Below are positions 7,552-22,117 of a stretch of DNA of 64,000 nt, piece after piece. The stretch covers positions 930,001 to 994,000 of the forward strand of contig NZ_VNHY01000001.1 in NCBI RefSeq assembly GCF_008124865.1, in the 5' to 3' direction. Numbering within the stretch: position 1 is the first letter of the stretch; each line of letters opens with the position of its first letter. Source of the stretch: Fodinibius salinus (GTDB lineage Bacteria > Bacteroidota > Rhodothermia > Balneolales > Balneolaceae). The notes under the pieces are model-generated. The model was not told the DNA's origin. It worked only from the letters and a program-made list of their open reading frames with translations, and did not search any database. Position numbers and translations under genes: made by a program.

Positions 7552-9063
7552 CTATATAGCTTCATTTTTGTTCGATTTTAGTGCCTGCGACAATGCAGAC
7601 TTCGCATTGCTCAACACCTGATACGAATCTCCATAATCGTCGGTTAGGCGAACGAAACCCACTTTTATACCCGTTTCTATCTCTTCACCACTTGAAAGTG
7701 TAAAAGCATTGGTGAATTTTTTCTTAACTGCTCGGGTCCATTTTTGAACAGTCTCGGAATCTTTATTCTGCAAGAAAAAAGAATACACATAGTCTGAGTT
7801 GTATCCCAAAATCCCAGGGAAACCGAACTGACTGGGATTAAATGCTGTAATCAAATCTCGCTGCATATCGGCCAGCTCTTCCATCCGCATTTTCGTCCGC
7901 AGTTCGGCCACATTGGAAATCGTTACCAACCCAAACCACGAATCATATGATACAATGTCTTTTTTGATTCGTAACAGCTCCGTATCCACGGTTCGCTCCC
8001 ATAAATCGGGTAGAAAAGCACGATAGTCATTTGCAAAAATTGGGGCGTCAAGCTCCATATTAGGATCATTCGCCATCATTTGAAGTGCTGCTGTACGAAC
8101 GAGATTGATAAATTTATGCTTGGTTGACTCTTTGAAAACAAGAGGATTCTTATCATACACCAACACAATGCCCTGTCGGCGATCTTTCATCATCAACGGA
8201 ATAGCCATTGAAGCTCCTTCTGTGTGGAACTCTCTCGGTGACAATCGATTGGGATTATTATTCAAATGAATGGCAAATTCAGCCTCCCCGCAATTGGCGG
8301 CTTCATAAGCCATTGACCGTTCCACCATCTGCATGCCGATGGGTGGAGCATACTTAGCATCTTCGGAATTCATAACGTTACACCAGCCGTCCATGCCCTG
8401 CGTCACAAACGATGCACCACCGTCATTTAAAAAAGACTGAATCTTATTTAGCAGCTTTTTGACCATTTCGGCCCGATGGCAGTTTTCCTCCAAATCAGAG
8501 ATTGTATCTTCATAGGCAATCCACTCATCCTCTTGTTCATATAAATCGCTAATTTCCAGATAAGTATTCAACACATTGCGCAGTGCGTTGATATAGGAAT
8601 ATATGACGTCACCGTTATCTTCTGTAAATACGTGTTCGCTTGATTCAAGTACCGTAATGGCCACGGTTTCCCCGTTATTTACAAAAGGCAACAGGGTAAC
8701 ATATTCTACGGGTACGTCATTATAATAATGGCTGAGAGCAGAAGCAGAAATATCTTCTCCAATCCGAACAGACACCGGCTCATCAATATCTTTAAATTTA
8801 TCTAAAAAGTGATTCTCAAAGCTTATGCGATCTTTGAACATCACATTATCAAGCATAGTCGATTGAGTTTCCATAACGAACTGCTTACGGGAACGGTTAA
8901 CCCAATACATATAGGCCGTCTCCATTTCAGAAGCGCTTCGGAGAAGAAACATCAGATCATTGAGCACTTCCTTAAACTCTCTCAACGCCTTTTCCTGGCG
9001 TTTTTGTCCCATTATATCAGCATTGGACTGTTCCTGTTCACGTGCCGTTGCGTAGTTTTCCAT
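7552..9063 (-). CDS. GAF-domain protein with a degenerate GGDEF-like C-terminus
   Basis: A 503-residue soluble protein with no signal peptide or membrane segment. Residues about 20-175 and 190-340 read as two GAF-like sensor domains joined by a helical linker. Residues 346-503 follow the layout of a GGDEF domain: an early strand-helix (WFGLVTISNVAELRTKM), a central hairpin (LGYNSDYVYSFFL at 419-431), and a late strand plus helix (VGFVRLTDDYGDSYQVLSNAKSALSQAL). The GG(D/E)EF catalytic turn is replaced by GYNSDY, so it should not make cyclic-di-GMP. The domain reading is my pattern match and not certain. The gene sits 8 bp after pepF and 2 bp before deoB, in a tight operon. Confidence 0.65.
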   Translation of the reverse strand: MENYATAREQEQSNADIMGQKRQEKALREFKEVLNDLMFLLRSASEMETAYMYWVNRSRKQFVMETQSTMLDNVMFKDRISFENHFLDKFKDIDEPVSVRIGEDISASALSHYYNDVPVEYVTLLPFVNNGETVAITVLESSEHVFTEDNGDVIYSYINALRNVLNTYLEISDLYEQEDEWIAYEDTISDLEENCHRAEMVKKLLNKIQSFLNDGGASFVTQGMDGWCNVMNSEDAKYAPPIGMQMVERSMAYEAANCGEAEFAIHLNNNPNRLSPREFHTEGASMAIPLMMKDRRQGIVLVYDKNPLVFKESTKHKFINLVRTAALQMMANDPNMELDAPIFANDYRAFLPDLWERTVDTELLRIKKDIVSYDSWFGLVTISNVAELRTKMRMEELADMQRDLITAFNPSQFGFPGILGYNSDYVYSFFLQNKDSETVQKWTRAVKKKFTNAFTLSSGEEIETGIKVGFVRLTDDYGDSYQVLSNAKSALSQALKSNKNEAI

Positions 9064-9071
9064 GCTGTATG

Positions 9072-10868
9072 TTAATTTATCTGATTAGCTAATTCTTCTG
9101 CCTGCTCAATCATTTTTTTGATTGCTCTCAATCCATTATCCCAGAAATCAGGCCTGGTAATATCCAGTCCCAATTTACCGACTATATTTTCGGGCCAGTC
9201 TGAACCTCCTGCGCGAAGCATCTCAATATACTTTTCCGAGAAGCCATTTTCTGACTGGGTATATTCCTCATACAGTGCCAAGACAAGCAATTCCCCAAAG
9301 GCATAAGCATACACATAGCCGGGTGTGTGCAAGAAATGGGGAATGTAGCTCCACCAAATATCGTATCCTTCAGTCAGCGTTACCGCATCTCCATAAATAT
9401 CTTCCTGGGTATTGCGCCAAAGTTCAGAAAAATCTTCAGTCGTCAACTCACCATCTTCCCGTCGCTTGGTATGGATGGCATGTTCAAACCGATTCATCGA
9501 TACCTGTCGAAATACCGTGGCAATGGTATCATCAATTTTACCAATCAGTAAAGCTAACTTTTCTTTAGGATCATCAAGCTTACGCATCAGCTTTTGAAAT
9601 ACCAGCATCTCACCAAATACTGATGCTGTCTCAGCCGTAGTTAGCGGGGTATCAGCCTGCAGGACTCCTTGTTCCCGAGATAAAAACTGATGCACGCCGT
9701 GTCCCAGCTCATGGGCTAATGTTTGCACATCTCGAATCTTGCCGTCAAAATTCATAAACACATACGGATGCACGGACGGCACCGTACTTGCCGAATATGC
9801 TCCACCGCGCTTGCCCGGTTTCATTGCAGCATCTATCCAGTTACGGTCGAAAAACTCACCGGCGACTGTACCCATATGCGGATGAAAATCGGTGTATGAA
9901 TCGAGTACCATTTCACGTGCTTCATCCCACTGTATCTGTTTCTTATTCTTTAAAAGCGGCGCATAACGATCGTAATCGAACAATTCGTCATACCCCAACA
10001 AACTTCGCTTCAGATCATAAAATCGATGTACCAATCTGTAATTATCAGTTACTGCATCAATGAGTGTCTCGACCGTACCATCATCAATTTCATTAGCCAG
10101 GTTTCGGGATGAAATCCAGCTGTCGTAATTGCGCAACTTGTCATCGGTATGTTTGTCGGCAAGTAGTGTATTAAAAATAAAGGTAAGCGTACGACTGTGC
10201 TCTTTAAAGGTGTTGGTCAACGAGGCATGTGCTCTCTCTCGTAATTCACGATCCGGCTCATGCAGTTTACTAAGAACCTCTTGCCGAGTCAGCGTTTCTC
10301 CATCCAGTTCGAATCGCGCCGCTCCCATGGTCTCATCAAAATAGCGATTCCATGCGCTCCTGCCCGTCACTTTCTTTGCAGAAAGCACTTGCTCCTCTTT
10401 CTCACTGAGAATATGAGATTTATATCGTCGTGATGTCTCCAGGTAATGCTGGTAGTGTTCCAGTTCTTCACTACCGATAAGATCTTGTGCCCGTTCCTCA
10501 TCTACATCCAGCCATTCCACATCAAAGAACACCAGCTTTTGGTGAATCTCAGAAGAAAGCTCGTTGGCCTCCTGCATCAGCTTCCCATATTCTGCATTAT
10601 TGGTATCGGTAGACCAGATCAGATGGGCATAGGAACCAATTTTGCTAGTTATTTCTAACAGCTGTTCATATTCTTCTAAGGCTTCTTTTAACTCTTCGGC
10701 CTCAAGGTCGGCGATCTTTCCTTTATAGTCATCAATAAAGGAATTTGCCAGCTCTAATACTTTTTCTTTGTCATCTTCCAATGCGGGATCATCAATAGAA
10801 TCGTACAGGTCAGAAAGATCCCACTCTATATTCTCTGCCCCTGTTTGCTCTTGCACATTATTGCTCAT
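9072..10868 (-). CDS. pepF: Oligoendopeptidase F (M3 family zinc metallopeptidase)
   Basis: A 598-residue cytoplasmic M3B peptidase that cuts short peptides. The zinc site is HELGH at residues 386-390 (LAHELGHGVHQFL), with the third ligand expected in the downstream TTAETASVFGEM segment (E413). The N-terminal helical half (residues 15-200) and the C-terminal helical part match the family layout, and the length is typical (about 600). No signal peptide is present. It is the first gene of the pepF-GAF-deoB operon. A role in clearing peptides left after signal- or leader-peptide cleavage is known for some relatives and would fit the nearby leader-peptide island, but that is inference from position. 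Confidence 0.93.
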   Translation of the reverse strand: MSNNVQEQTGAENIEWDLSDLYDSIDDPALEDDKEKVLELANSFIDDYKGKIADLEAEELKEALEEYEQLLEITSKIGSYAHLIWSTDTNNAEYGKLMQEANELSSEIHQKLVFFDVEWLDVDEERAQDLIGSEELEHYQHYLETSRRYKSHILSEKEEQVLSAKKVTGRSAWNRYFDETMGAARFELDGETLTRQEVLSKLHEPDRELRERAHASLTNTFKEHSRTLTFIFNTLLADKHTDDKLRNYDSWISSRNLANEIDDGTVETLIDAVTDNYRLVHRFYDLKRSLLGYDELFDYDRYAPLLKNKKQIQWDEAREMVLDSYTDFHPHMGTVAGEFFDRNWIDAAMKPGKRGGAYSASTVPSVHPYVFMNFDGKIRDVQTLAHELGHGVHQFLSREQGVLQADTPLTTAETASVFGEMLVFQKLMRKLDDPKEKLALLIGKIDDTIATVFRQVSMNRFEHAIHTKRREDGELTTEDFSELWRNTQEDIYGDAVTLTEGYDIWWSYIPHFLHTPGYVYAYAFGELLVLALYEEYTQSENGFSEKYIEMLRAGGSDWPENIVGKLGLDITRPDFWDNGLRAIKKMIEQAEELANQIN

Positions 10869-11322
10869 AAATACTATCTAACTAAATCACGTTATTAAAT
10901 CACCGTTACCGCTCAATGAAAGTAGAGTTATAACTAGAATCTCTACTTCATAATCGTGATCTAATATAAGAATGATTCAATAAGACTCATACCTGTGAAA
11001 GGAATTAACCTGAGTGAAAATTACCTCTTGATGGTACACTTATAATATTATGTAGGAGATAATCGATATGGCTTCGAAATCAAATAATAAATCGTGTTCT
11101 GTCTTTTGAACAATGGGAGTAGAACTCCTTTTGAGTTTGTCACTTATTCCCCACGCTCAAAAAGTGCAAAAATTATATCCTCCAGACGCACCTCGAGGTG
11201 GTGCTTTGATATATGGACGAACATGCTGCCGCTCAGAAGATGAACAATTTCTTGCACTACATAACCAACAAGTTTTTAATAAAGAAGTGGTCCCCCCTAC
11301 CACTTTGACTACAATGCCCTGC
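10869..11322. other. Intergenic stretch upstream of pepF, no gene seen
   Basis: This 454-bp gap lies between the pepF start and the end of the propeller pseudogene. It contains a 7-bp hairpin at about 10920-10947 (AGTAGAG/CTCTACT) in the pepF upstream region. A plus-strand open frame at 11113-11421 has no family features and overlaps the pseudogene antisense, so I do not call it. I see nothing else. Confidence 0.5.
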
Positions 11323-12456
11323 TTACCTCAAAGGATTCTCATCAAGCTCCAGACGTATCACGCGCTTAGGCTCGTCAACACTGAAATTTATACCATAAAT
11401 ACTATTCTTATATACCTGTAATTGCGACAGGTTATAAGGCACGGTTATGTACCGAGTGTTCATTGGATTTTGGTCTATGAAAATAACCATCCCACGCTTT
11501 CGGGCAGGATGAAACATGCGCAACAAGATAATATCGTTCTCCACCAAAAAGCCGGAAAACAGCGGGATCTGCTCTATCTATTTCGTTACCGGCCATAACT
11601 CATCCCTGGCCAAGGACATAAATCGTTCTTTAATATCCTGCAAATACGAAGAGGTTTTCGGACGCTCTGGTAGCTGATGGAGTGGTAACTTTTTTTGTTT
11701 GCCTGTACGAAGATTATATTTCCTAACAACAGGATCTTTTGTCTGCAGATAGTAAAACCACTCCCCATCTACCTCCCAGAATGTTCTATTTAAAAAAACA
11801 TTTGGAACAAATAAACGTATATCACCGCTGGTAACCTTCTCTCTTTGATTACCCGGCAGCTGCAACAACTTTTCGGTGGGAGTACCATTCTTATCAAGGC
11901 GATAGAGAACATGGCTATTCTCCGATGTTTGAAATCCTTTACTCTTGTTATATACTCCAAACCATCCGAAGTCTGTAATAAAAACATTGTGCAAAGAATG
12001 GTTTTGGGGATTTTCGTACGAAATCGACTCTACATATTGTAGTTGTTTATCCCGAACCTCGAATACAGTAATACGAAACAACAGCATATCCAGGCAATAA
12101 ATGCGCCCATCGGCTCCAACATGCAGCTGTACGATCCGTTGAAACTCTCCCGGTCCTTTCCCTTCACCCCCAGCCACAGACAATACCTTTCCCTCCTTGG
12201 TTATAAGAACTATCGTTTGGTCAGCAGCATCTACCATTATGAAACGATTTGATTGTGGTAGTTTTCGCAGGCTCCCTGGCTCTAATACGGAGCTATCAAA
12301 AGATAGCGTATCTGTTGTAACGCTTATTTGGGGAAATTTGGATTGTAGCTGGACTGTATAATTATCTGAGCTATTTTGGCTTTTTGGGTTAGTGCAGGAA
12401 AAAACGCTAAATAAAACAGTCAGTATTACAATTAATTCAATAGTATAACTCTGCAT
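11323..12456 (-). pseudogene. Six-bladed beta-propeller lipoprotein, interrupted by an in-frame amber codon
   Basis: The start is ATG at 12456, giving MQSYTIELIVILTVLFSVFSC, a lipoprotein signal with Cys at the lipobox. A further upstream ATG would put the signal inside the protein, so it was not used. The body has the propeller signature GGEGKGPGEFQ. A TAG codon at 11580-11578 stops translation after ...DELWPVTK, but the same frame stays open for another 85 codons that read as the missing last blade (PLFSGFLVENDIILL... to ...LELDENPLR). No frameshift is needed, so this is a single nonsense change. The truncated product may still be made. It lies downstream of precursor remnant 12519-12725 with a hairpin between them. 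Confidence 0.75.
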
Positions 12457-12471
12457 ATGGTATTTAGTAAT

Positions 12472-12503
12472 AGGTCTGCACGTAAATATAAACGTGCAGA
12501 CCT
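12472..12503 (-). terminator. Hairpin between precursor remnant and propeller lipoprotein
   Basis: Perfect 12-bp arms AGGTCTGCACGT / ACGTGCAGACCT enclose an 8-base A/T loop. It lies 16 bp after the precursor stop and 15 bp before the lipoprotein start. No strong T-run follows, so it is better read as an attenuator or mRNA-stabilising stem-loop than a full terminator. Confidence 0.6.
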
Positions 12504-12518
12504 GATTGAAAATTATTA

Positions 12519-12725
12519 TTAACAAGTTGATAAACCAGAACATTGTGCTTGACAGCATTTTAGCTGTTTCCTACAAACAGCAGTTAACTCCCTATCACGG
12601 TTACTTACTACATATGTAAAACAATCTTGGGCTATGTCATTGCAAACATCTGTGCAAGACTCTTGAATATATCCTGCCTTTATACTTTTCATTTCATCTC
12701 AACTTAGACTTTTTGCTAGTTCCAT
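12519..12725 (-). pseudogene. Leader-type Cys-rich precursor peptide with a stop codon in the leader
   Basis: Reading from ATG at 12725 gives MELAKSLS-stop-DEMKSIKAG, followed by a 50-residue tail with eight Cys that ends ...CCQAQCSGLSTC. The leader matches the other precursors of the island except that the conserved Arg codon of LSRDEM is TGA. An internal ATG (the M of DEMK) could start a shortened peptide of about 57 residues that keeps the KAG cut site but lacks most of the leader. The gene lies about 90 bp downstream of the HlyD remnant and 62 bp upstream of the propeller lipoprotein pseudogene. It belongs to the same family as the genes at 16361, 18141, 21378 and 21639. Confidence 0.7.
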
Positions 12726-12815
12726 AATAAATAAATGTTAATTTATGATTTATATGTTATCCGTTTTAAAATTTTACAGGGACAGATAACCCTGCTTAGC
12801 TTTTGCAAGCCACTC

Positions 12816-13376
12816 TTAACGAAGTTCTTTTGTGAGGTTGTTGTAAATACGCTCGATAAATCGCATATCCTGAGTGATAATTTCTGCGCGTCCCTGCATG
12901 CCATTAGTAGGTTTTAACTGCCGGTCATAACTTGTAGTAAAGCCGTTGGGAAAAGTAACTTTGGCAATAAATACACTATCTCTTACCGGGAATTCAGACA
13001 GGTAATCGACCTTCCCCGATACCGAGCCAAATTCTTTAGAAGGATAGCCACTAAAACGGACCAGCACCTCTTGGCCCTCTTGAATCTTACCATACGACCG
13101 CTGCGAAACCGCCAGCTCTCCAAAAAAACGGGTATTTTCAGGCTGCACATATGCCAGCCGTTCACCGCTTTTAATCGTTTGATTCTCCTGAAATATGCCG
13201 GCATATACCAGCTTACCGGCAACCGGTGCCCGCAATAGGTATTTTCGTTTCCACTCCTTTATCCCACTGCGCAAAGTGTTTAATGTCTGACGGAAATCAG
13301 CTTTCTTACTATCCAGCTGTTTGTTCAATTCCATCAATTGCTTCTTTTTCGCAATCAGTGAAGTGCGATTATTAAT
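12816..13376 (-). pseudogene. HlyD-type secretion (membrane fusion) protein, 5' half deleted
   Basis: The frame reads ...RTSLIAKKKQLMELNKQLDS then a coiled-coil tail, the lipoyl/barrel-sandwich half motif LRAPVAGKLVYAGIFQENQ, and a C-terminal beta domain ending ...NLTKELR. This is the second half of a periplasmic adaptor of the HlyD/EmrA type that works with peptidase-containing ABC exporters. The N-terminal membrane anchor, the first half of the barrel-sandwich domain and the first coil are missing. The left junction falls at about 13376-13395, directly against the C39 peptidase gene. A short in-frame start near 13337 could still be translated, but the product would have no export signal or anchor. 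Confidence 0.8.
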
Positions 13377-13846
13377 AATTTCAGTTCATTGTTCTCTTCC
13401 CCTTCCAGATCATAAAATTTTGGGGTCGTATGCAGCAGTAATGCAATACCGGTAGCCTGCTCATCTACTTTTGAGCTTAACCATTGCTGCAAAAAATCGT
13501 CTTTTTTGTACACCACCTTTCCTTTAGCCGGATCCGCGATATACACTTTTTGCCTGCTTATTTTATAGACGACCACAAAATGCTCTTGTCCCCAATGTAC
13601 CACACACGGTAGTTCTGCCTCCCTTTTTAGCTGCTCCCAGGTGAGCTTCGCACCTATAGTTCGGAAGCCGATCTCTTCGGCCGCTTCGCTCATCCCTAAC
13701 AACGACACCCCTTCGCGGTTTATACCGCTTTTCTTGCGAAGCGTCTCTAAAGTGTAATTCCGCCCGTGATGCTTAGCAATCATGCGAAGGCAGGTGGGCC
13801 CGCAATCCATTTGATCGTGCTGTCGATAAACCTTAAATCCTGTCAT
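13355..13846 (-). pseudogene. C39 leader-peptidase domain of a bacteriocin-type ABC exporter, truncated
   Basis: The 163-residue frame starts MTGFKVYRQHDQMDCGPTCL and covers a complete C39 papain-like peptidase domain: oxyanion Gln12, catalytic Cys15, His89 (EHFVVVYK) and Asp105 (ADPAKG). C39 domains cut double-glycine-type leaders during export. In the full-length PCAT exporter this domain is followed by a membrane domain and an ATPase. Here the frame reaches the linker (TPKFYDLEGEENNE) and then runs out of frame into the HlyD remnant. The transporter core is absent. A free, soluble C39 domain could still be made and all catalytic residues are present, so residual leader-cleaving activity cannot be excluded. 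Confidence 0.85.
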
Positions 13847-14229
13847 CTATTATAATACGTTATGCTATTTATTACAGAGATTAGTTATTCGATGTTGCTG
13901 GGAAATTTCGATTGATAAATTATTCAGCTTAGATAACAACAAATAAATACAGCTAACCCAATTGCTATCTCAGACAAATACATCGCAGTAAATGGTAATA
14001 CTTTTGGACTTATCTTTGACAAATCAGGTATGTTTCAATCAAAAATTCCAACCGCTGCTATTTATCAAATAAAACGACACTATGCTTGAGATATATACTG
14101 AGATCTCTCCTGAATTTTGTCCTGAGAAATGACATTAATTGAGCTTATCACTTTGATATTTCCCTAAATAAACTACAAACCATTCGGTGACAGCCGCTGG
14201 TAGTCTAGTAGCTGACATAGAAGTATTTT
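13847..14229. other. Upstream region of the C39 gene
   Basis: A 383-bp A/T-rich gap between the C39 gene start and the propeller fragment at 14230. It contains the four-unit 12-bp repeat array at 14085-14132, about 240 bp upstream of the C39 start. No open frame with family features and no tRNA-like structure were seen here. Confidence 0.5.
14085..14132 (-). promoter_or_regulatory. Four tandem 12-bp repeats upstream of the C39 exporter gene
   Basis: On the plus strand the units are CTTGAGATATAT, ACTGAGATCTCT, CCTGAATTTTGT and CCTGAGAAATGA, each exactly 12 bases. TGA recurs at 14087, 14099, 14111 and 14123. The same kind of array stands upstream of precursor genes at 18424-18457 and 21855-21890. 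A repeat near one helical turn suggests cooperative binding of one regulator along one face of DNA. The regulator is unknown. Confidence 0.6.
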
Positions 14230-14433
14230 TTAGGCTTCTTCCATAACAAACCGGTATTTAACTATTTGCTGTTGTCCGATCTCTTCCTGCGTTTCACGGG
14301 TATAAATATAATCGCCCTTCATCAACTGAATCGGTTTACTCCTCGGCCAGTTGAAGCGAGCAATCAATTCACCAGTTGGTTTTAATACCCACCAAATACT
14401 CAGAGAAGACCCTCTCTGAGAGCTAAAGTTCAT
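14230..14433 (-). pseudogene. C-terminal fragment of a propeller lipoprotein
   Basis: The 67-residue frame contains SIWWVLKPTGELIARFNWPR and ends DYIYTRETQEE...VKYRFVMEEA. This aligns with the last blade of the intact paralogues (EWWILEESGKLLAKLTLP..., GYLYSKKTKEE...VVKYRIALTKK). Everything upstream of this blade is missing, and the gap to the next gene is too short to hold it. The fragment has no signal peptide and is taken as a deletion remnant of a fifth or sixth family member. Confidence 0.7.
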
Positions 14434-14559
14434 AAGACCCTTTGGTTTTCGAGAGAGTAAATTTCGCCAGCAATTTTCTTGCTGCTGTCAAAACCCTAAC
14501 TTTTGTTGACGGATACTCATGTTATTTTAGAATACACTTTGAAAATCGCACTACGAAAA

Positions 14560-14844
14560 TTATGGTCTAAACATATCTCTCGGACTCCACCAATTTTCAA
14601 TTTTAACATGCAGGTAGCTGACAAAATAGTCTCCGTAAAACCAGCCCATAAGTAAACAGATTATCCCATAAGAACTCAAAATCAAGTAAAAGACAGTACT
14701 ATTAGGAAAAAATACAATTACAAAACTCAATGGAGTCACTTGCAGTACAAAAACACCAAAGAGTAAGGCCACTATAGAATTCCTCAGCTTTTGCCATACA
14801 CTTGGTTCCTTACATACTTTCATTTTTGTTTCGTCTATTTCCAT
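14560..14844 (-). CDS. Small membrane protein of unknown function inside the peptide island
   Basis: A 94-residue frame with a polar N-terminus (MEIDETKMKVCKEP), two strong hydrophobic segments (about residues 24-46 and 50-72), and a polar aromatic tail ending WWSPRDMFRP. I recognise no family. It lies on the same strand as the precursor and lipoprotein genes, 175 bp downstream of the lipoprotein at 15020. Small two-helix membrane proteins next to leader-peptide genes often act as immunity proteins, but here that is only a suggestion from position and size. It could also be the remains of a longer membrane protein. Codon use looks like its neighbours. Confidence 0.45.
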   Translation of the reverse strand: MEIDETKMKVCKEPSVWQKLRNSIVALLFGVFVLQVTPLSFVIVFFPNSTVFYLILSSYGIICLLMGWFYGDYFVSYLHVKIENWWSPRDMFRP

Positions 14845-15019
14845 CTTATAGTGTAATTATTGTATTTACTATTTTCGATATTAAATCTATCTGTTTTGGT
14901 ATAACTTTGTTTCAAGTAAGACCAAGTCTGCTTGAAGAATGCTTTTATTGTTTAATGGCATTCTACATTAATTTTCCATTTCACTATGCGGTCTATGACT
15001 TTTCGGGGACTATAACTCG

Positions 15020-15293
15020 TTATTTTTTCGTCAGTGCAATCCGGTACTTAACCACATACTCGATACCTGTTTCTTCCTTGGTCTTTTTGCTATACAGATA
15101 CCCATTTTTGATGTCGTAAATCTCTTGCTCACCGGGAAGCGTCAGTTTTGCAAGGAGTTTGCCTGATTCTTCCAGGATCCACCACTCATAGCTATCACTT
15201 TGCCCCCCCGTTGGTACCGCCACCCAAATCCGGTTTTCATCATCAACCATCAAACGATCTATAATAGGATTTGCTTCCGGCAGCTCTTCATCA
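15020..15293 (-). repeat. Near-identical 3' end shared with 18557-18830 (copy 1)
   Basis: The final 274 bp of this lipoprotein gene match positions 18557-18830 without gaps and with about six mismatches by eye (about 98%). The middle parts of the two genes are far more diverged. This points to recent gene conversion or recombination between paralogues. Confidence 0.85.
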
Positions 15294-16300
15294 TGTATAT
15301 CTATTGCTTTCATGACATCACTTTGATCGTAAAAAGGTGTTGGAGTATGAGAACTAAGATCAAAGGGTGAGCCTTTTACCGGATAATAAATCGCAGATTG
15401 GTAGTTGCCCTTAGCATCGTACTTTTTTATCAAAAAATCATGGTTCCAAACCGAGTATAGTTCTCCTTCATCGGATATACCTGTAACCGTAGATCCCATA
15501 AATGGCATCGGCTTAAGTGACATTGGAGCTGACATTGACTCTGTCTTTCCCTGAGCCTTAAAACTTCTCCGGAATTCCAGAATATTATAATCCAGTGCAG
15601 CTCCGTCTGAGTCCATTAGCAGATACTTCGCCACCGGCCAGCCGGTTTCAGAGACTTGTTGGTAGAAACTGACTAAGTAATTACCATCATTTCTGGGATT
15701 CATCATTCCGAATTCTAGTCCCTCAACCGCTTTATGATCTCGTATCTCCAACCGCTCGATTAGCATGGTTCTTTCAAGGGAATAATCAGTTGAGTTATAA
15801 ATATTGAACCGTTTATTCCTTACATCACGGATCAATATTTTTCCGGGTTGGGCCCTCATCCCCAATACATAGCCGTATTCACCGGGTCCATTGCCCGATC
15901 TTCCGATCGCGGTATGGAATGTACCATCTTCATTATATACATAAACCTGTTGAGCATAGTTAGATCCTGAATTCAAAATGATCACTCTATCCTTATCATC
16001 TACAACACAATTTTGTACCTGTGTTAGGTAAGGTTCCCCTGATTTACCAAACGTTTGCTCAGGAATCAATTCTATGGAATTTGCGGGTTCCGTATCCCCC
16101 GAAAAAACGGTGAGGTTCTCAGTTTCTTTAATATCCTGAGGAACTTCATCGAGGATGCGGATTTGTGCTGTTTCTTCAGATTGTTCTATTTGTTCTGTTT
16201 GTTCTATTTCTTTTTGTGAAGGGCTATTGGAGCATTGAACTAGAGAAAAAATTATAACTATACTCAGTAATAATCGTTGAAAATATTTCATGTATTCCAT
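15020..16300 (-). CDS. Six-bladed beta-propeller lipoprotein
   Basis: A 426-residue protein with a lipoprotein signal ending SLVQC (Cys near residue 23). The start may be M1 (16300) or M4 (16291); the paralogue at 18557 aligns with M4. After an acidic Glu/Gln-rich linker come propeller repeats with the family signature GRSGNGPGEYGYVLG and blades ending in NRIWVAVPTGG and WWILEESGKLLAKL. This matches the 6-bladed (NHL-like, DUF4934/DUF5128-type) lipoproteins common in Bacteroidota, which have no proven enzymatic role. It follows precursor peptide 16361-16582 by 60 bp with a perfect palindrome between them. Its last 274 bp are about 98% identical to the paralogue at 18557. Confidence 0.85.
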   Translation of the reverse strand: MEYMKYFQRLLLSIVIIFSLVQCSNSPSQKEIEQTEQIEQSEETAQIRILDEVPQDIKETENLTVFSGDTEPANSIELIPEQTFGKSGEPYLTQVQNCVVDDKDRVIILNSGSNYAQQVYVYNEDGTFHTAIGRSGNGPGEYGYVLGMRAQPGKILIRDVRNKRFNIYNSTDYSLERTMLIERLEIRDHKAVEGLEFGMMNPRNDGNYLVSFYQQVSETGWPVAKYLLMDSDGAALDYNILEFRRSFKAQGKTESMSAPMSLKPMPFMGSTVTGISDEGELYSVWNHDFLIKKYDAKGNYQSAIYYPVKGSPFDLSSHTPTPFYDQSDVMKAIDIHDEELPEANPIIDRLMVDDENRIWVAVPTGGQSDSYEWWILEESGKLLAKLTLPGEQEIYDIKNGYLYSKKTKEETGIEYVVKYRIALTKK

Positions 16301-16311
16301 TGGTTAAACTG

Positions 16312-16347
16312 AAAACAAAAGGGTATTAATTAATACCCTTTTGTTTT
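16312..16347 (-). terminator. Perfect 36-bp palindrome between precursor and lipoprotein
   Basis: The arms AAAACAAAAGGGTATTAA and TTAATACCCTTTTGTTTT are exact complements with no loop. The GGGTATT stem followed by TTTTGTTTT gives an intrinsic-terminator shape on both strands. It lies 13 bp past the precursor stop and 11 bp before the first lipoprotein start codon. A partial terminator here would give more precursor than lipoprotein mRNA. Confidence 0.75.
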
Positions 16348-16360
16348 ATTAATTTTGAGT

Positions 16361-16582
16361 TTATTGATAATATTTCCCGCATAACTCAATCATTGATTTG
16401 TGCGCACTTTGAACAGTTTGCACACATTCTGTCTGATCCCAACCACTATACCACTCTCTACACTTGCGTGACACACAATTATAATACTTACTTGTCGTTT
16501 TACAGCTTGGGGTCGGGCAATCCATCTTACCTGCTTTTATATTTTTCATTTCATCTCTACTTAGTGTTTTTGCAAATGACAT
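16361..16582 (-). CDS. Leader-type Cys-rich precursor peptide (intact)
   Basis: A 73-residue peptide. The leader is MSFAKTLSRDEMKNIKAG (18 residues), with an Ala-Gly that corresponds to the double-glycine cut site of C39 exporters. The 55-residue core has six Cys (DC, SC, NC, KC, EC, LC) and many Lys, Tyr and Ser. The leader resembles the Bacteroidales GG-type natural-product precursors (TIGR04149-like). The core resembles nothing I know. The start is set by a conserved 5' context GGTGACTATTTATGTC shared with the gene at 18141. No modifying enzyme is encoded nearby, so the Cys may form disulfides. It is paired with the downstream propeller lipoprotein at 15020. Confidence 0.75.
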   Translation of the reverse strand: MSFAKTLSRDEMKNIKAGKMDCPTPSCKTTSKYYNCVSRKCREWYSGWDQTECVQTVQSAHKSMIELCGKYYQ

Positions 16583-16677
16583 AAATAGTCACCGTTTAAA
16601 TTAAAAGAATTATTATTGCTGCTATCGCAACACGTTGGTACTATATGAAAACTGCAGGACAAATATTTGCATTCTGT

Positions 16678-16701
16678 ACTGATGAATAACCTGATATTTA
16701 T
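16678..16701 (-). promoter_or_regulatory. Two-unit 12-bp repeat upstream of a precursor gene (weak copy)
   Basis: The consecutive units ACTGATGAATAA and CCTGATATTTAT (plus strand) have the same start and period as the arrays at 14085, 18424 and 21855. They lie 96 bp upstream of the precursor start at 16582, close to the 85-86 bp seen for the other two precursors. Only two units are recognisable, so this is less certain. Confidence 0.4.
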
Positions 16702-16829
16702 GATTAGTTTGACACAGTGAATATTCTAGACCAGGCAGACCATAATCCATTCTAACATGCTGGTAGTATGTTTAAAAACTGTTCAAAAATTTTATGTAAT
16801 ATTCTTATCAGATTGCTATAACTATTAGA

Positions 16830-18011
16830 TCAAAATGGATACGCTCTGATCTCTGCCTTTTCCGTTACAGCAAATATCCGGCGTTCTGAAAAATTAATAT
16901 CAAAAATAGAAGAGAGATTAATGTTTTTTGATTCCAGTTTATATCGACGGACAAGATCACCCTTAGAATCAAACTCATGAATCCATAGCCTATTTAAAGG
17001 TTGGGCAAAATAGTTTTTGCCTATTCCCAAATACAGATGACCATCAGGACCACTTATACCAGAAACATATTTATTAAGTGCCACTCGCCCCCTTCCTTTT
17101 TCTAAAATATTTTCAGATTTTTCAAAGAAATTAGTTGTAAGCGAGTCCAGTTCTGGAGATTCAGGAGTATTTGTCTCCCATATCTTTTTTCCTGACATTT
17201 CATACTTTGCAATTTTAGGGAAGGCGCTATAAACAATATATATTTCATTACCTTTCCCTTGATTACTGATTGGAAACGCGTGGGGACGGTAATAGTTTGG
17301 TATTTCTCTTTGCTCAATTGAAGTGCTGTAGGCATCATAATCCAGCGAAAAGTCACTGTCCTTAGGAATATCACCTATCTTCCCTAGTCGGTCTCCTCCC
17401 CAATCAACCAAGCTGTAAAGCATATCAAAAGAATCACCGGGATAGATATTAGATAACAAAACATGGTCATTCTCTGTTATCGCAGGCTGATTATTAATAT
17501 TTTTTGCACGCGGCTCTAGCGGTAAAGGTGCAGGAGGAGGGAGAGACTGCCGATTTTCTCTACCATAATTCATTGTACCAACTAAATTACCACCAATCTT
17601 AAATCGTGTAATACGAAATTGCAGTGGATCAATAACATATAAATAATCATTAGTTAAAAATATATTGTTTACGTTTAAAAACTCTCCCGGGCCCCGTCCC
17701 TGTTTACCATATTCATTGATGATATCACCCTTGTTATTAAATTCAAATACTGTTAATTCTGCAGCATCATAGATAAATAAATGAGAATTATTATTGTTAA
17801 TCCTAATAATTTGAGGATTTGATAACTTGTGTTCCTTATAAGATACAATAGTCTCATACTTTTTAAGCTCCACTATTTCGGCATCTGTCGAAGAGTTGCC
17901 AGAAGGTGAGGTATTACTACAGTCAACCCAAAATATGGATATTATAATAGTAAAGAGAAATGTAGTAAATAGATTATTTTTTGCACTATTCGATTTTAAA
18001 TACATATTCAA
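16830..18011 (-). CDS. Six-bladed beta-propeller lipoprotein (divergent paralogue)
   Basis: A 393-residue protein with a hydrophobic signal ending IFWVDC, a lipobox with an unusual Asp before Cys. The start may be M1 (18011) or M3 (18005). The body holds the family signature YGKQGRGPGEFLNV and blade ends such as DPLQFRITRFKIGG and IYIVYSAFPKIAKYEMSGKKIW, which fit an NHL-like six-bladed propeller. It is clearly diverged from the paralogues at 15020 and 18557 and lacks their EWWILEESG blade. It lies 129 bp downstream of precursor 18141-18338, with a hairpin in the gap. An outer-membrane or surface location is expected from the lipobox. The role is unknown. Confidence 0.82.
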   Translation of the reverse strand: MNMYLKSNSAKNNLFTTFLFTIIISIFWVDCSNTSPSGNSSTDAEIVELKKYETIVSYKEHKLSNPQIIRINNNNSHLFIYDAAELTVFEFNNKGDIINEYGKQGRGPGEFLNVNNIFLTNDYLYVIDPLQFRITRFKIGGNLVGTMNYGRENRQSLPPPAPLPLEPRAKNINNQPAITENDHVLLSNIYPGDSFDMLYSLVDWGGDRLGKIGDIPKDSDFSLDYDAYSTSIEQREIPNYYRPHAFPISNQGKGNEIYIVYSAFPKIAKYEMSGKKIWETNTPESPELDSLTTNFFEKSENILEKGRGRVALNKYVSGISGPDGHLYLGIGKNYFAQPLNRLWIHEFDSKGDLVRRYKLESKNINLSSIFDINFSERRIFAVTEKAEIRAYPF

Positions 18012-18085
18012 TGAGTTTATACCAATTATTTATACTCAAAAAATTAAAATCTAAAAATTACCAAATATATAAAATAGCCGTTTCA

Positions 18086-18116
18086 CCGAGGGGCACACAG
18101 TTAAAATGCACCTCGG
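18086..18116 (-). terminator. Hairpin between precursor 18141 and its lipoprotein
   Basis: The arms CCGAGGGGCA and TGCACCTCGG pair over 10 bp with one mismatch around an 11-base loop. An overlapping alternative pairs ATAGCCG with CGGCTAT. It lies 24 bp after the precursor stop, as in the other units. No T-run follows directly on the minus strand, so an attenuator or stabiliser is likelier than a full stop. Confidence 0.6.
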
Positions 18117-18140
18117 CTATCGGCATTTTCTGTTTAATAT

Positions 18141-18338
18141 TTATGCCCATGCTAACACGCATGGTGTTTTAATAGCACCAGCAGTACAGTCTTTTGATGG
18201 CCCCCACGTGGGATCACTGCAATTGCTATAATCAAAATCATCAGCCCAACAACATACGTTACAAGCCTTTCCTTCAGAAACTCTACCTGCCTTTACATTT
18301 TTCATTTCGTCTCGACTTAGTGTTTTCATAAATGACAT
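18141..18338 (-). CDS. Leader-type Cys-rich precursor peptide (intact)
   Basis: A 65-residue peptide. The leader MSFMKTLSRDEMKNVKAG is nearly the same as in the gene at 16361. The 47-residue core is different and holds six Cys including a CNVCC cluster, and is rich in Asp, Trp and Ser. The Ala-Gly before the core is the expected C39 cut site. The upstream context AAAGGTGACTATTTATG serves as ribosome binding region and is shared between members. A 12-bp repeat array stands 86 bp upstream. The downstream partner is the propeller lipoprotein at 16830. A conserved leader with a variable core is the usual pattern of exported peptide families. Activity is unknown. Confidence 0.75.
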   Translation of the reverse strand: MSFMKTLSRDEMKNVKAGRVSEGKACNVCCWADDFDYSNCSDPTWGPSKDCTAGAIKTPCVLAWA

Positions 18339-18423
18339 AAATAGTCACCTTTTATTTGTATTGCAATTTATTATTATTTGCTAATGCAGATGATATAATC
18401 ATAGTAAGACTTTCAGCCAAATG

Positions 18424-18457
18424 ATTGAGATTTCCTGAGATTTATCCTGAGAAATGG
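18424..18457 (-). promoter_or_regulatory. 12-bp repeat array upstream of precursor 18141
   Basis: The plus-strand units are ATTGAGATTT (two bases short), CCTGAGATTTAT and CCTGAGAAATGG. The block CCAAATG(A/C)TTGAG at its edge, and about 70 bp between the array and the precursor start, are also shared with the array at 21855. On the minus strand a TTTGG follows the array, possibly a -33 element. Confidence 0.6.
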
Positions 18458-18556
18458 TCACAACTATCCTACCATTGCTGCATTTACGTTACATATGACA
18501 CAGATTATTTTCAGTAGGTTTCTCCCCCGCAAGACAAAAGGAGAACGAGCCTTCCA

Positions 18557-18830
18557 TTACTTTTTCGTCAGTGCAATCCGGTACTTAACCACATACTCGG
18601 TACCTGTTTCTTCATTGGTCTTTTTGCTATACAGATACCCATTTTTGATGTCGTAAATCTCTTGCTCACGGGGAAGGGTCAGTTTTGCAAGCAGTTTGCC
18701 TGATTCTTCCAGGATCCACCACTCATAGCTATCACTTTGCCCCCCCGTTGGTACCGCCACCCAAATCCGGTTTTCATCATCAACCATCAAACGATCTATA
18801 ATAGGATTTGCTTCCGGCAGCTCTTCATCA
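18557..18830 (-). repeat. Near-identical 3' end shared with 15020-15293 (copy 2)
   Basis: This is the second copy of the 274-bp segment described at 15020-15293. It ends abruptly at ...GCTCTTCATCA, after which the two genes diverge. Confidence 0.85.
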
Positions 18831-19813
18831 ACGATCTCTAATGTGTTCATGACATCCTGTTGAGTATAGTTGGCCTCATCAGTGTATTCGTCGAGGTCAA
18901 AGGAAGAACCCGTAATGGGATAGTAGATCGCCGATTGATAAACGCCCTTGGGATTGTACTTTTTGATTAAAAAATCCTGCGTCCAGGCCGAGTAGAGTTC
19001 ATTATCGCTGGACAGCGCGGTAACAGTCTTTCCCATAAAGGGTAAAGGCCTAAAAGCACTCGGGACACGCGAATTACTCTTAATAGCATTAAGATCAGAC
19101 CGGAATACAAGAGGATTAAAATCCAACGCATTCCCATACGCATCCATCAGCATATATGTATATTCTGGCCAGTCAGTTCCAGAGCTCGGTTCATCGAATG
19201 TGATCAGGAAATTTCCGTCGTTTCTGGCCTCAAAATAACCAGATTCCAACCCCTGAACAGCCTCATGGTCCCTGACGCCCCACTGCTCAATCAGGGTCGA
19301 CCGTTCAAAAGAGTAATCGTCTGTATTATATATATTTAGACGCTTGCTGGTATAGTCAAACACGAACACTTTTCCTGCCTCCGCTTGTAAGCCAAGGATA
19401 ATACCATACTCCCCGGGTCCTCTGCCTGGACCACCGAGCTGGATATGGTAGCTGCCATCAGCATTGTAGGCATACACTTTGTATAGAAATGGACCTGCGC
19501 CGCTAGAGTATTCCCCTTGATCTAAAATGATTACTCTCCCCTTATCATCGACAGCAAATCCTATTATCTGTGTTAAGTAAGGCTCCCCTGATTTACCAAA
19601 CGTTTGCTCAGGAATCAATTCTATGGAATGCGTGGGCTCCGCATAGCCTGGAAAAACGGTGAGGTTCTCAGTTTCTTTAATATCCTGAGGAATTTCATCG
19701 AGGATGCGGATATGTTCCGGTTGCTCTGGTGTGGATTTATTGGAACATTGAACAAGAAAAAAGCATACAACGATGCTTAGTAATATTGGTAATAAGCGTT
19801 GAAAGTATCGCAT
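18557..19813 (-). CDS. Six-bladed beta-propeller lipoprotein
   Basis: The chosen start is the ATG at 19813, giving MRYFQRLLPILLSIVVCFFLVQC, a proper lipoprotein signal. An upstream start at 19939 would bury it behind 42 residues, so it was not used. The protein is about 418 residues, with the signature GGPGRGPGEYGIILG, and blades ending DENRIWVAVPTGG and GYLYSKKTNEE. It is the closest paralogue of the lipoprotein at 15020; the first 130 bp after the signal and the last 274 bp are nearly the same, while the middle differs. It lies 238 bp downstream of the lipoprotein at 20052, and no precursor gene is visible directly upstream of it. Confidence 0.85.
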   Translation of the reverse strand: MRYFQRLLPILLSIVVCFFLVQCSNKSTPEQPEHIRILDEIPQDIKETENLTVFPGYAEPTHSIELIPEQTFGKSGEPYLTQIIGFAVDDKGRVIILDQGEYSSGAGPFLYKVYAYNADGSYHIQLGGPGRGPGEYGIILGLQAEAGKVFVFDYTSKRLNIYNTDDYSFERSTLIEQWGVRDHEAVQGLESGYFEARNDGNFLITFDEPSSGTDWPEYTYMLMDAYGNALDFNPLVFRSDLNAIKSNSRVPSAFRPLPFMGKTVTALSSDNELYSAWTQDFLIKKYNPKGVYQSAIYYPITGSSFDLDEYTDEANYTQQDVMNTLEIVDEELPEANPIIDRLMVDDENRIWVAVPTGGQSDSYEWWILEESGKLLAKLTLPREQEIYDIKNGYLYSKKTNEETGTEYVVKYRIALTKK

Positions 19814-20051
19814 GTATTGTATTGGGTAAACGTTAATATATCGGCTTGTACCTCTATTATATATTGTAATACTTGGAATCTCTTTGATGATCTGAGAGAT
19901 AGACCTTTTCGTATCTTCAATTCTTTCACAGGCTGGCAAACCAACATATCAGCACTAAACCTATATGGCAAAAGAAATATTTTCGCATAATGGAGTACCC
20001 AGGCAAGGTATATTTCGGTTTATTCTTGCATACCCATTTAACTGGATTAAC

Positions 20052-21308
20052 CTAGTGCAACCCGGACTCTTTAAACTTAATTTTATGCTTTACAATACGA
20101 TCTATCCCTTGTGGGATATCCCGTTCGCGGGTGTATAAGTAGCCGTTTTTTATTTTGAATAGCGGCGGTCTTTCCGCACTCCTTTCGGCACGGTGCCCCG
20201 GCCATTCGAACCGAGCCCGTAACCTTCCCTGTTTGCCCAATACCCAACCTTGGTAGCTGCTTTCACTGTCGGTAATGGTCTGTACCCAAAAGCGACCTTC
20301 ATCATCGGCCACCATATTGTGAATAACAGGCCAGGTATCCGGTACCTTTCCCGGATGTTCTTCTACTAACTGTCTCTTGGCTTTTCCCAACTCAGTCTCT
20401 GAAAGTAATAGGGAACTTTTCTCATAGGAATAATAAAATGCACGGCGGTAATTCCCGTTCTTATCATATACTTTTATCAAAAAACGTCCTGTCCGGGCAG
20501 TAAACAGAAGACTATCGCCAGCAGTAACTATAGTACTTCGAGAGAATGGCATCGATCTTGGCAATCGAACCGTTCCCTTAGAAGTCATCCGATTCTCAGG
20601 TTTATAAAATGACGTTTTAGGTTCCGATAAAACCGGCTTCTCCCTTAACATACCTTTTTTTATAATTTTGTAGTAATAATTGCTAGGTATCATATTGGGA
20701 TTAAATGGGCTTGATCCATCAAAACGTACAATAAGCCTTCCCTTATTTGTTGTTAACAAATTGTTTGCTGATAAAGCAGATAATTCATCGGTTAGCGAAT
20801 CTGTCCTCACGATTATTTCATACTCCAAAGAATATGTATCCAAAGTAAACTTCCCTATCTTTTGTAATTTTGGACCTAAAATATATAAGTAGCCATTATT
20901 AATTAGTATGTCAGAGATTGTAATAAATTCTTTGGGTCCTCTTCCCTCTCGCAAGAATTTAGTTATAAAATCACCATCAGGGCTAAATACATATATTCCA
21001 ACGGTACCGGGCTTGCTTACAGCAATATATACATTATCCTGATCATCGATCGCAATATCCCCGGTATAGCCTTCAAAAAATACCTTCTCATTACTCTCAA
21101 AAACCTGCTTCCGCTGGAACACGACGGTATCATATGATTGGTCGGAAAATGAATAAACGCTCAGGTTATCAAGGCTTTGGAGGCTGTCTGGCAGCTTTGC
21201 TTTCAGGCCTGAAATTTGTTCAGACCCGGCGGGCTTCTCGGCCGTTCGGCGGTCGTTATTACATCCGAAAAATAACACTACAATCGATAATTGTACGATA
21301 TATCGCAT
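20052..21308 (-). CDS. Six-bladed beta-propeller lipoprotein
   Basis: A 418-residue protein with a short lipoprotein signal MRYIVQLSIVVLFFGC (Cys16) and a polar linker. The body contains the propeller signature LREGRGPKEFITISD, with Lys in place of the usual Gly, and blades ending GRFWVQTITDSESSYQGWVL and GYLYTRERD. It belongs to the same family as the genes at 15020, 16830 and 18557 but is more distant. It lies 69 bp downstream of the frameshifted precursor at 21378, with a hairpin in between, and is therefore the third clear precursor/hairpin/lipoprotein unit. Surface exposure is expected from the lipobox. The ligand or role is unknown. Confidence 0.85.
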   Translation of the reverse strand: MRYIVQLSIVVLFFGCNNDRRTAEKPAGSEQISGLKAKLPDSLQSLDNLSVYSFSDQSYDTVVFQRKQVFESNEKVFFEGYTGDIAIDDQDNVYIAVSKPGTVGIYVFSPDGDFITKFLREGRGPKEFITISDILINNGYLYILGPKLQKIGKFTLDTYSLEYEIIVRTDSLTDELSALSANNLLTTNKGRLIVRFDGSSPFNPNMIPSNYYYKIIKKGMLREKPVLSEPKTSFYKPENRMTSKGTVRLPRSMPFSRSTIVTAGDSLLFTARTGRFLIKVYDKNGNYRRAFYYSYEKSSLLLSETELGKAKRQLVEEHPGKVPDTWPVIHNMVADDEGRFWVQTITDSESSYQGWVLGKQGRLRARFEWPGHRAERSAERPPLFKIKNGYLYTRERDIPQGIDRIVKHKIKFKESGLH

Positions 21309-21323
21309 ATTGAAAATTAAATT

Positions 21324-21349
21324 CGCAGGACCCGGCGAAAGGTCCTGCG
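21324..21349 (-). terminator. Hairpin between precursor 21378 and its lipoprotein
   Basis: Perfect 9-bp arms CGCAGGACC / GGTCCTGCG surround an 8-base loop. It lies between the inferred precursor stop (21378) and the lipoprotein start (21308). The minus strand continues GAATTTAATTTTC, a weak T-rich tail. It fills the same position as the hairpins in the other three units. Confidence 0.6.
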
Positions 21350-21377
21350 GTGATTATTATTAAGCTATTTATCAAGT

Positions 21378-21608
21378 TTAAGGAGCATTTCCAAATCCTG
21401 CCCCCACAACTGGCACAGCAGTAGCCTGATACATACGATCCATCAGGATTTGATTCTCCGTAAAGGCTTTCAGCTTGACTGACAGTAAAACTGCCATCAG
21501 AATATCCCAGTGCACTGCCGTCTGCATTTCTTAAAAATACCCGGCAAGGCGCAGAACCAGCCTTCACATTTCTATTTTATTTCTACTTAGTGTTTGTATA
21601 AATGACAT
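21378..21608 (-). pseudogene. Leader-type precursor peptide with frameshifts
   Basis: From ATG at 21608 the frame reads MSFIQTLSRNKIEM and then stops. One base earlier or later the sequence continues NVKAG followed by a Gly/Ser-rich core (SAPCRVFLRNADG...). Alignment with the other leaders shows one base missing in an A-run. A second problem is a run of five G near 21402: with four G the core would end CGAGFGNAP and stop at 21378, at the normal distance from the hairpin and the lipoprotein; with five it runs on into the next gene. Both sites are homopolymers, so assembly or read errors are possible. Confidence 0.6.
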
Positions 21609-21638
21609 AAATAGTCCCCTTTTATACTAACTTCGAAA

Positions 21639-21770
21639 TTATTTCATTCTACATAACGGACGGCATTGGGAAGGGTGAGTCACATATAAATTTTCACCAT
21701 CACATTCACATTTATATCTGTCTGTACCTGCCTTTACACTTTTCATTTCATCTCGACTTAGAGTTTTCAT
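21639..21770 (-). CDS. Short leader-type Cys-containing precursor peptide (intact)
   Basis: A 43-residue peptide. The leader MKTLSRDEMKSVKAG is three residues shorter at its N-terminus than its relatives. The 28-residue core TDRYKCECDGE... ends QCRPLCRMK and has four Cys in a CxC and CxxxC layout. It is the shortest member and the first gene of its unit; the frameshifted precursor at 21378 follows 30 bp later. The 12-bp repeat array at 21855 stands 85 bp upstream. The four Cys could form two disulfides. No known family was recognised beyond the leader. The leader conservation and position make it a believable gene despite its size. Confidence 0.7.
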   Translation of the reverse strand: MKTLSRDEMKSVKAGTDRYKCECDGENLYVTHPSQCRPLCRMK

Positions 21771-22117
21771 AAATAGTTATCTTTAACTTTGATTATAAAT
21801 AATTATCACTGCTAAAGCAGCTGATAGTATCATAACAAGGCTGATGGCCAAATGCTTGAGATTTGTCCTGAAATATCTCCTGAATTTTATGGGGTTAAAA
21901 CTGACAGCGAACGCTATTTTTTGTTACCAAAGAAATAACTGTAAATCAGGGTTTATTATGTATGATATTTACAAAATGAAAAGTTCCAATTTAATACTAC
22001 AATACTTAACTTTAGGCTTAATTGCTTTGGGTATCTTAAAGCCCGGCAAAATAGTCACTTATAACTCGTATAGGCTTTTATTAGCCAAAAATTTAAACCA
22101 GTCAATAAGACCACATT
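21771..22117. other. Divergent intergenic region between the peptide island and kgd
   Basis: This 347-bp A/T-rich region serves the precursor unit on the left and kgd on the right. It contains the 12-bp repeat array 21855-21890. No clear TAnnTTTG promoter was found for kgd. A plus-strand open frame through it has no family features. Confidence 0.5.
21855..21890 (-). promoter_or_regulatory. Three tandem 12-bp repeats upstream of precursor 21639
   Basis: The plus-strand units are CTTGAGATTTGT, CCTGAAATATCT and CCTGAATTTTAT, each exactly 12 bases. TGA recurs at 21857, 21869 and 21881. The units match one by one the first three units at 14085-14120. The sequence between the array and the gene (GATA(C/T)TATCA(G/T)CTGC) is also shared with the 18424 copy. 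Confidence 0.6.

Follow-up and report, generated by a model that had tools for sequence, protein, structure and literature searches.

A decaying island of cysteine-rich leader peptides and cognate propeller lipoproteins in Fodinibius salinus: a possible toxin-immunity system

We analysed 64,000 nucleotides of the Fodinibius salinus genome (contig NZ_VNHY01000001.1, positions 930,001 to 994,000), referred to as the window; coordinates count from its first letter. Between positions 11323 and 21770, the minus strand harbors an island of small cysteine (Cys)-rich peptide genes with a common leader of export type, three of them intact and two broken. In four of these five cases a gene for a six-bladed propeller lipoprotein follows. 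The system to which the island belongs is intact in related salt-loving Balneolota, where peptides with this leader precede such propellers and co-segregate with them by family; what the window retains of it is a remnant in decay. We suggest that the propeller is the cognate partner of its peptide, and that the two possibly act as immunity protein and toxin.

Leader peptides of the island

All five peptide genes and remnants lie on the minus strand, about where a preliminary description made from the letters of the window had placed them:

21639-21770, minus strand: intact leader peptide, MKTLSRDEMKSVKAG with a 4-Cys tail, 43 amino acids (aa); leader profile E 4.8e-11
21378-21608, minus strand: leader peptide remnant with a tail of the YCCASCG family; one-base frameshift within the leader, the tail (...SGYCCASCGG) continuing in another frame
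18141-18338, minus strand: intact leader peptide, MSFMKTLSRDEMKNVKAG with a 6-Cys tail, 65 aa; leader profile E 4.5e-13
16361-16582, minus strand: intact leader peptide, MSFAKTLSRDEMKNIKAG with a 6-Cys tail of the WYSG family, 73 aa; leader profile E 4.7e-13
12519-12725, minus strand: leader peptide pseudogene with an 8-Cys tail of the CTDVCN family; a TGA at 12699-12701 interrupts the leader (MELAKSLS*DEMKSIKAG) and the tail stays open

The leader common to all five is MSFxKTLSRDEMKNxKAG. A profile built from four of the leaders matched the 2.86-Mb genome at four places, all in the island, with the fourth E value at 3.3e-10 and all of them far above chance; the search of the whole genome gave no further leader places. 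The nearest named model is NF047798 (leader_Chryseo, "bacteriocin-like protein"), an 18-position leader with the same terminal Gly. All three intact peptides can be aligned with the last 14 of these positions and score 18.9-20.3 bits, under its cut-off of 23.5. The family suggested earlier, TIGR04149, was discarded: it is absent from the NCBIfam matches of the three intact peptides and has no match in the genome, the latter being a weak negative as control genomes were unmatched too. The NVEALA profile (PF14055) likewise has no match in this genome. Nor is the Ala-Gly cut site distinctive, as had been thought, for AG and GG ends are both present inside one leader family. The tails are indeed unrelated to each other within the window, but most of them have relatives elsewhere.

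Propeller lipoproteins of the island

Four full-length propeller genes are intact and one is broken, and there is one additional fragment:

20052-21308, minus strand: intact six-bladed propeller lipoprotein paired with remnant 21378; PF17170, structure model
18557-19939, minus strand: six-bladed propeller lipoprotein, intact, without adjoining peptide; start probably further in, at about 19813; PF17170
16830-18011, minus strand: intact six-bladed propeller lipoprotein paired with peptide 18141; PF17170, 45.7 bits
15020-16300, minus strand: intact six-bladed propeller lipoprotein paired with peptide 16361; PF17170
14230-14433, minus strand: C-terminal propeller gene fragment, matching the C-termini of 15020 and 18557 with 37-39% identity
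11323-12456, minus strand: propeller lipoprotein pseudogene, partner of peptide 12519; TAG at 11578-11580

The five full-length genes all match PF17170 (6-bladed beta-propeller) and four pass its cut-off. Propeller 18557 stays just under the single-domain cut-off at 21-22 bits and reaches 23 bits when its in-frame neighbours are included; compared with its Fodinibius halophilus relative, its ratio of nonsynonymous to synonymous substitutions (dN/dS) is about 0.18, a rough estimate with dS near 1. The broken propeller 11323 had been described as frameshifted; the actual break is the in-frame TAG. It is 64% identical to the F. halophilus partner of the same peptide family. An AlphaFold model of propeller 20052 (local confidence, pLDDT, 90; predicted template-modelling score, pTM, 0.87) has the propeller fold. 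Among solved structures, BF0058 (4raa) and NHL propellers rank first, and BtuG surface lipoproteins come further down.

The adjacency of peptide and propeller is confirmed for four pairs and does not extend to the whole island: peptide 21639 is followed by remnant 21378, and propeller 18557 has no peptide directly upstream. The 3' ends of propellers 15020 and 18557 (15020-15320 versus 18557-18857) are 88-100% identical in 60-base blocks and the remainder differs, a pattern that points to recent gene conversion or recombination.

Pairing and co-segregation

For the survey of relatives, loci were picked by the leader, not by the propeller. Across Balneolales, the next same-strand gene is a propeller for 55 of 64 leader peptides, as against 19 of 122 for other open frames of the same loci, and the regularity noticed in the window thus proved general. 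The exceptions include loci L049 and L093, whose peptides are accompanied by an exporter and a VKOR protein and have no adjoining propeller. Within Fodinibius, PF17170 proteins (6 to 24 each) occur in exactly 6 of 12 genomes, namely those with leader peptides; the six genomes without them contain no PF17170 at E 1e-5.

The pairing is also cognate by family. For 54 pairs from 18 genomes we compared, between genomes, the similarity of peptide tails (leader removed) with the similarity of the downstream propellers; in the null, propellers were shuffled among pairs of the same genome in 5000 trials. The Pearson correlation is 0.443, whereas shuffling gives 0.053 +/- 0.032 with a maximum of 0.205. 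The rank correlation across all pairs is near zero (0.03), because most tail pairs are unrelated and the signal stems from the related ones. Families that co-segregate include CTDVCN, WYSG, YCSGSDC, CDGCQ and YCCASCG. Calculated by propeller residues, r is 0.49 (151-240), 0.46 (241-320), 0.35 (76-150), 0.28 (20-75) and 0.20 (321-418), so it is the variable middle blades that track the peptide best. One-to-one cognate pairing with co-segregation, as is characteristic of toxin and immunity genes, is therefore observed here.

Propellers do occur alone. In the surveyed loci, 51 of them lack an adjoining leader peptide and are similar to the 52 that have one (median best similarity 0.32 versus 0.35). 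One locus (L220:3621-19001) holds an array of about 13 same-strand propeller lipoproteins without adjacent peptides. The pattern resembles polyimmunity loci of polymorphic toxins (PMC3482391), although a receptor family could look alike.

Intact islands and decay of the window copy

Islands of relatives were reached through matches to the same leader family. When intact, those of Balneolaceae comprise one C39-ABC exporter, one HlyD, one VKOR fusion, small AraC-type helix-turn-helix genes and many peptide/propeller cassettes. The C39-ABC proteins are 729-734 aa long and 75-79% identical to the first of them, and intact exporters adjoin the same leaders in L047-L049, L051, L054, L057, L088 and L093. 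The island peptides are thus C39-exported leader peptides, both by their GG or AG end and by the C39-ABC exporter and HlyD of the intact system. The VKOR protein is fused to Thioredoxin_4 (VKOR-DsbA type, 535-574 aa) and has invariant CxxC and CxPC motifs. An even number of Cys is found in 57 of the 64 leader peptides, which is consistent with disulfides; we infer their formation, and the fusion in intact islands argues that it is part of the system. There is one exporter and one VKOR protein common to the island, yet a separate partner for each peptide.

The earlier statement that no modifying enzyme is present holds for the window and, as regards VKOR, for the genome; it does not hold for intact islands, given their VKOR-DsbA-type fusion. 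No radical-SAM protein was recognised among Pfam matches of the scanned island proteins, and a genome-wide radical-SAM search was not made. Leader binding by a C39-like N-terminal part of the VKOR fusion was considered and is not used as evidence, since the model has pLDDT 56 and the matches are weak (L042 fragment, E 2.6e-4; L100, E 5.9e-5).

Some islands contain further genes. Glycosyltransferase-like and LanC-like genes and DUF6625 proteins (L048:10575-12531; L050:2720-3571; L098:4955-5785) may possibly modify the peptides further; LanC-like and glycosyltransferase-like genes are both present in one relative. A Peptidase_S26 protein is encoded in one Balneolales peptide island (L047:18370-18921) and another in an NVEALA locus (L196:13835-14725). 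A 2044-aa open frame (L049:13286-19420) stands behind exporter and HlyD in L049, the locus whose three peptides have no propeller neighbour.

In the window, remnants of the exporter were reported before, and alignment to intact proteins bears this out:

13355-13846, minus strand: remnant of the exporter's C39 peptidase domain, covering residues 6-156 out of about 734
12816-13385, minus strand: remnant of the HlyD adaptor, covering residues 258-446 out of 446

The C39-ABC part (residues 6-156) passes almost directly into the HlyD part (residues 258-446), which indicates one internal deletion of about 2.5 kb. According to profile searches, on which our genome-wide statements on F. salinus are based, the C39 fragment is the only C39 peptidase of the genome. 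They revealed no intact C39 exporter elsewhere in it, and no VKOR protein. With its sole C39 protein truncated and no VKOR, the genome is most likely unable to export these peptides by the C39 route, and the window copy is therefore decaying.

Other leaders and other partners

The pairing is not special to this leader. Firstly, in other Balneolota, Sec-type Cys-rich peptides lie directly upstream of the same propeller family (5 of 5 propellers in L222:3871-19207 and 2 of 3 in L224:2645-5871), and such pairs are found inside islands as well (L042:13965-15164; L045:15869-17275; L053:11122-12159; L092:2904-4025). DsbA-like and MauE genes come after such a Sec-type pair (genome G009; locus L045). 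Three Sec-type pairs of L222 are preceded by a 204-aa protein with near-identical N-termini (5486-6100, 7979-8593, 10492-11106), which has no Pfam match in the one copy tested. Secondly, in Bacteroidales loci L196-L199, each NVEALA (PF14055) peptide comes directly before a lipoprotein about 350 aa long, and the Balneolota propeller profile matches most of these lipoproteins. In the NVEALA loci examined, neither a C39 exporter nor a VKOR fusion was found. Because the propeller family pairs with C39, Sec-type and NVEALA leaders, it is tied to the peptide and not to the export route.

Sphingobacteriaceae present another arrangement. Pedobacter and Mucilaginibacter possess the same leader, exporter and VKOR fusion; a propeller follows none of their 92 peptides and a TlpA-like thioredoxin protein follows 30 of the 92. 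When the peptide families were sought outside Balneolota, YCCASCG alone was found. This family has a propeller partner in the window (21378) and a TlpA-like thioredoxin partner in Pedobacter alluvionis (L111:8224-8448), so the partner is replaceable.

A direct repeat as putative operator

Three places of the island carry a direct repeat with a 12-bp period, each an exact match to the motif:

21866-21883, minus strand: direct repeat TCAGGAGATATTTCAGGA ahead of peptide 21639, putative operator
18433-18450, minus strand: direct repeat TCAGGATAAATCTCAGGA ahead of peptide 18141, putative operator
14108-14125, minus strand: direct repeat TCAGGACAAAATTCAGGA ahead of the C39 remnant, putative operator

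These are the only exact matches of TCAGGA-N6-TCAGGA in the window, where 0.30 are expected even allowing one mismatch, and the whole genome has five. In F. halophilus the repeat stands upstream of peptides and of VKOR; upstream of most peptides in other genomes it was not found. An AraC-type regulator is the likely reader of the repeat. A 94-aa frame with hydrophobic stretches and without Pfam match (14560-14844) lies between the propeller fragment and propeller 15020.

Proposed function and alternatives

We propose the following model. The Balneolaceae system would produce small secreted peptides whose leaders, 15-18 residues long, end in AG or GG. The C39 domain of the shared ABC exporter, acting with HlyD, would cut the leader, and the shared VKOR-DsbA-type fusion would oxidise the cysteines. 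Each peptide would be encoded directly before its own cognate propeller lipoprotein, the pair travelling as a cassette. On the likeliest reading, the mature peptide is a toxin of narrow range whose site of action is the envelope of related bacteria, and the propeller binds its cognate peptide and protects the cell; propeller arrays without peptides might provide extra immunity. The parts concerning leader, C39 export, VKOR, and the cognate, co-segregating propeller are in our opinion very probable. That the peptide is a toxin and the propeller its immunity protein is a tentative suggestion, to which we give a little less than an even chance. For the explanation as a whole, the chances are about equal either way.

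In the genome of the window, exporter and VKOR are gone and most propellers are intact, as expected if resistance outlives production. Several observations weigh against toxin and immunity. Some loci (L049, L093) have peptides and exporter with no propeller adjoining, and the exchange of partners in the YCCASCG family is odd for lock-and-key immunity. The partner, at about 400 aa, is large for bacteriocin immunity, and producers of bacteroidetocins have no immunity gene (PMC6671954). Sec-type peptides paired with propellers would get no further than the periplasm by Sec. Finally, linkage of neighbours could partly explain the co-segregation.

The main rival is that the propeller is a receptor or carrier, which captures its own peptide at the surface or presents it there, for signal uptake, kin recognition or display. 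Surface propeller lipoproteins of Bacteroides are known to bind small ligands, and BtuG structures are among the Foldseek matches of our model. Association of one propeller family with C39, Sec-type and NVEALA-type peptides fits binding of the mature peptide, and AraC-type regulators reside within the islands. On the other hand, no partner for signalling or uptake, such as a TonB-dependent receptor or a kinase, was recognised beside the pairs, in the absence of a systematic search for one. Display explains long peptide-less arrays less easily, and the persistence of propellers after exporter loss also speaks against it. We regard this possibility as unlikely, though it deserves to be taken seriously.

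Less probable still is a role in maturation, in which the propeller would aid folding, correct disulfides or exit of its own peptide. The gene in the same place in Sphingobacteriaceae often encodes a TlpA-like thioredoxin protein, redox by family, with 28 direct pairs, and the DsbA-like and MauE genes behind the G009 pair point the same way. But a VKOR-DsbA fusion common to all peptides is already part of the system, intact exporters of L049 and L093 stand beside peptides lacking an adjoining propeller, many propellers have no peptide, and the few invariant propeller columns include no evident catalytic motif.

It is very improbable that peptides and propellers lack a functional tie and are paired merely through linkage in an island rich in repeats: neighbours are inherited together and the islands are propeller-dense (propeller follows propeller 24 times), but the pairing counts and the co-segregation, which exceeds within-genome shuffles by 12 standard deviations, led us to reject chance linkage, and the differences between propeller regions together with the recurrence of pairing with unrelated leaders argue that linkage is not the whole cause of co-segregation.

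Irrespective of toxicity, the balance tips slightly towards a general two-gene module across Balneolota and Bacteroidota, composed of a secreted Cys-rich miniprotein and its cognate propeller lipoprotein, whatever the export route (C39, Sec or NVEALA), and often located near a disulfide-forming enzyme. Such a module would form a class not described before, in which peptide and propeller are partners, either as toxin and immunity protein or as ligand and receptor.

Significance and comparison with known systems

Six-bladed propeller lipoproteins of PF17170/PF15869 are common in Bacteroidota, and no function for them was found in the literature searched. Adjacency to Cys-rich export peptides and co-segregation with them suggest a concrete, testable role, and the pairing yields many candidates for peptide toxins or signals. 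Should the propeller serve in immunity or as a receptor, its fold would be new in such a role, and peptide-less propellers could record past conflict. We found no literature on NVEALA, PF17170 function, a VKOR-C39 fusion, Balneolota bacteriocins or peptide/propeller pairing, many journals being outside the search.

Several known systems invite comparison. The PF17170 (DUF5128) and PF15869 TolB-like propeller lipoproteins, for example BF0058 (PDB 4raa), share fold and sequence family with the island propellers, which are distinguished by being tied to a peptide partner. NVEALA pairs have, as in island cassettes, a small, mostly Cys-containing peptide directly before a lipoprotein, whereas their signal-peptide-like leader with the NVEALA motif is unlike the island leader. 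In polymorphic toxin systems, immunity genes lie beside toxins and form arrays known as polyimmunity loci, and Imm65 carries a lipobox in Bacteroidetes (Zhang et al. 2012, PMC3482391). Those toxins are domains of large proteins; our candidates are small exported peptides with presumed immunity partners.

The nearest studied system is that of bacteroidetocins (class IIf bacteriocins; Coyne et al. 2019, PMC6671954), C39-exported peptide toxins assisted by a thiol oxidoreductase, with a GG leader of 15-16 aa that a C39-type ABC transporter removes by cleavage behind GG. The island system is like them in leader type, in the C39-ABC exporter, in the thiol oxidoreductase (VKOR-Thioredoxin_4 in relatives), in the Cys-containing peptide and in its occurrence in Bacteroidetes. 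Compared by description only, bacteroidetocins are about 42 aa long with 4 Cys, and most peptides of the island system have 6-10 Cys and varied tails, a difference that speaks against their belonging to the bacteroidetocin sequence family. Each described bacteroidetocin locus has one peptide, with no cognate lipoprotein and no immunity gene. The island system, in contrast, combines many unrelated peptides of 4-10 Cys with one exporter, one HlyD and one VKOR fusion, and provides each peptide with a propeller of its own. Taken together, these features point to an undescribed class of paired peptides and partner proteins, perhaps toxins and their immunity proteins.

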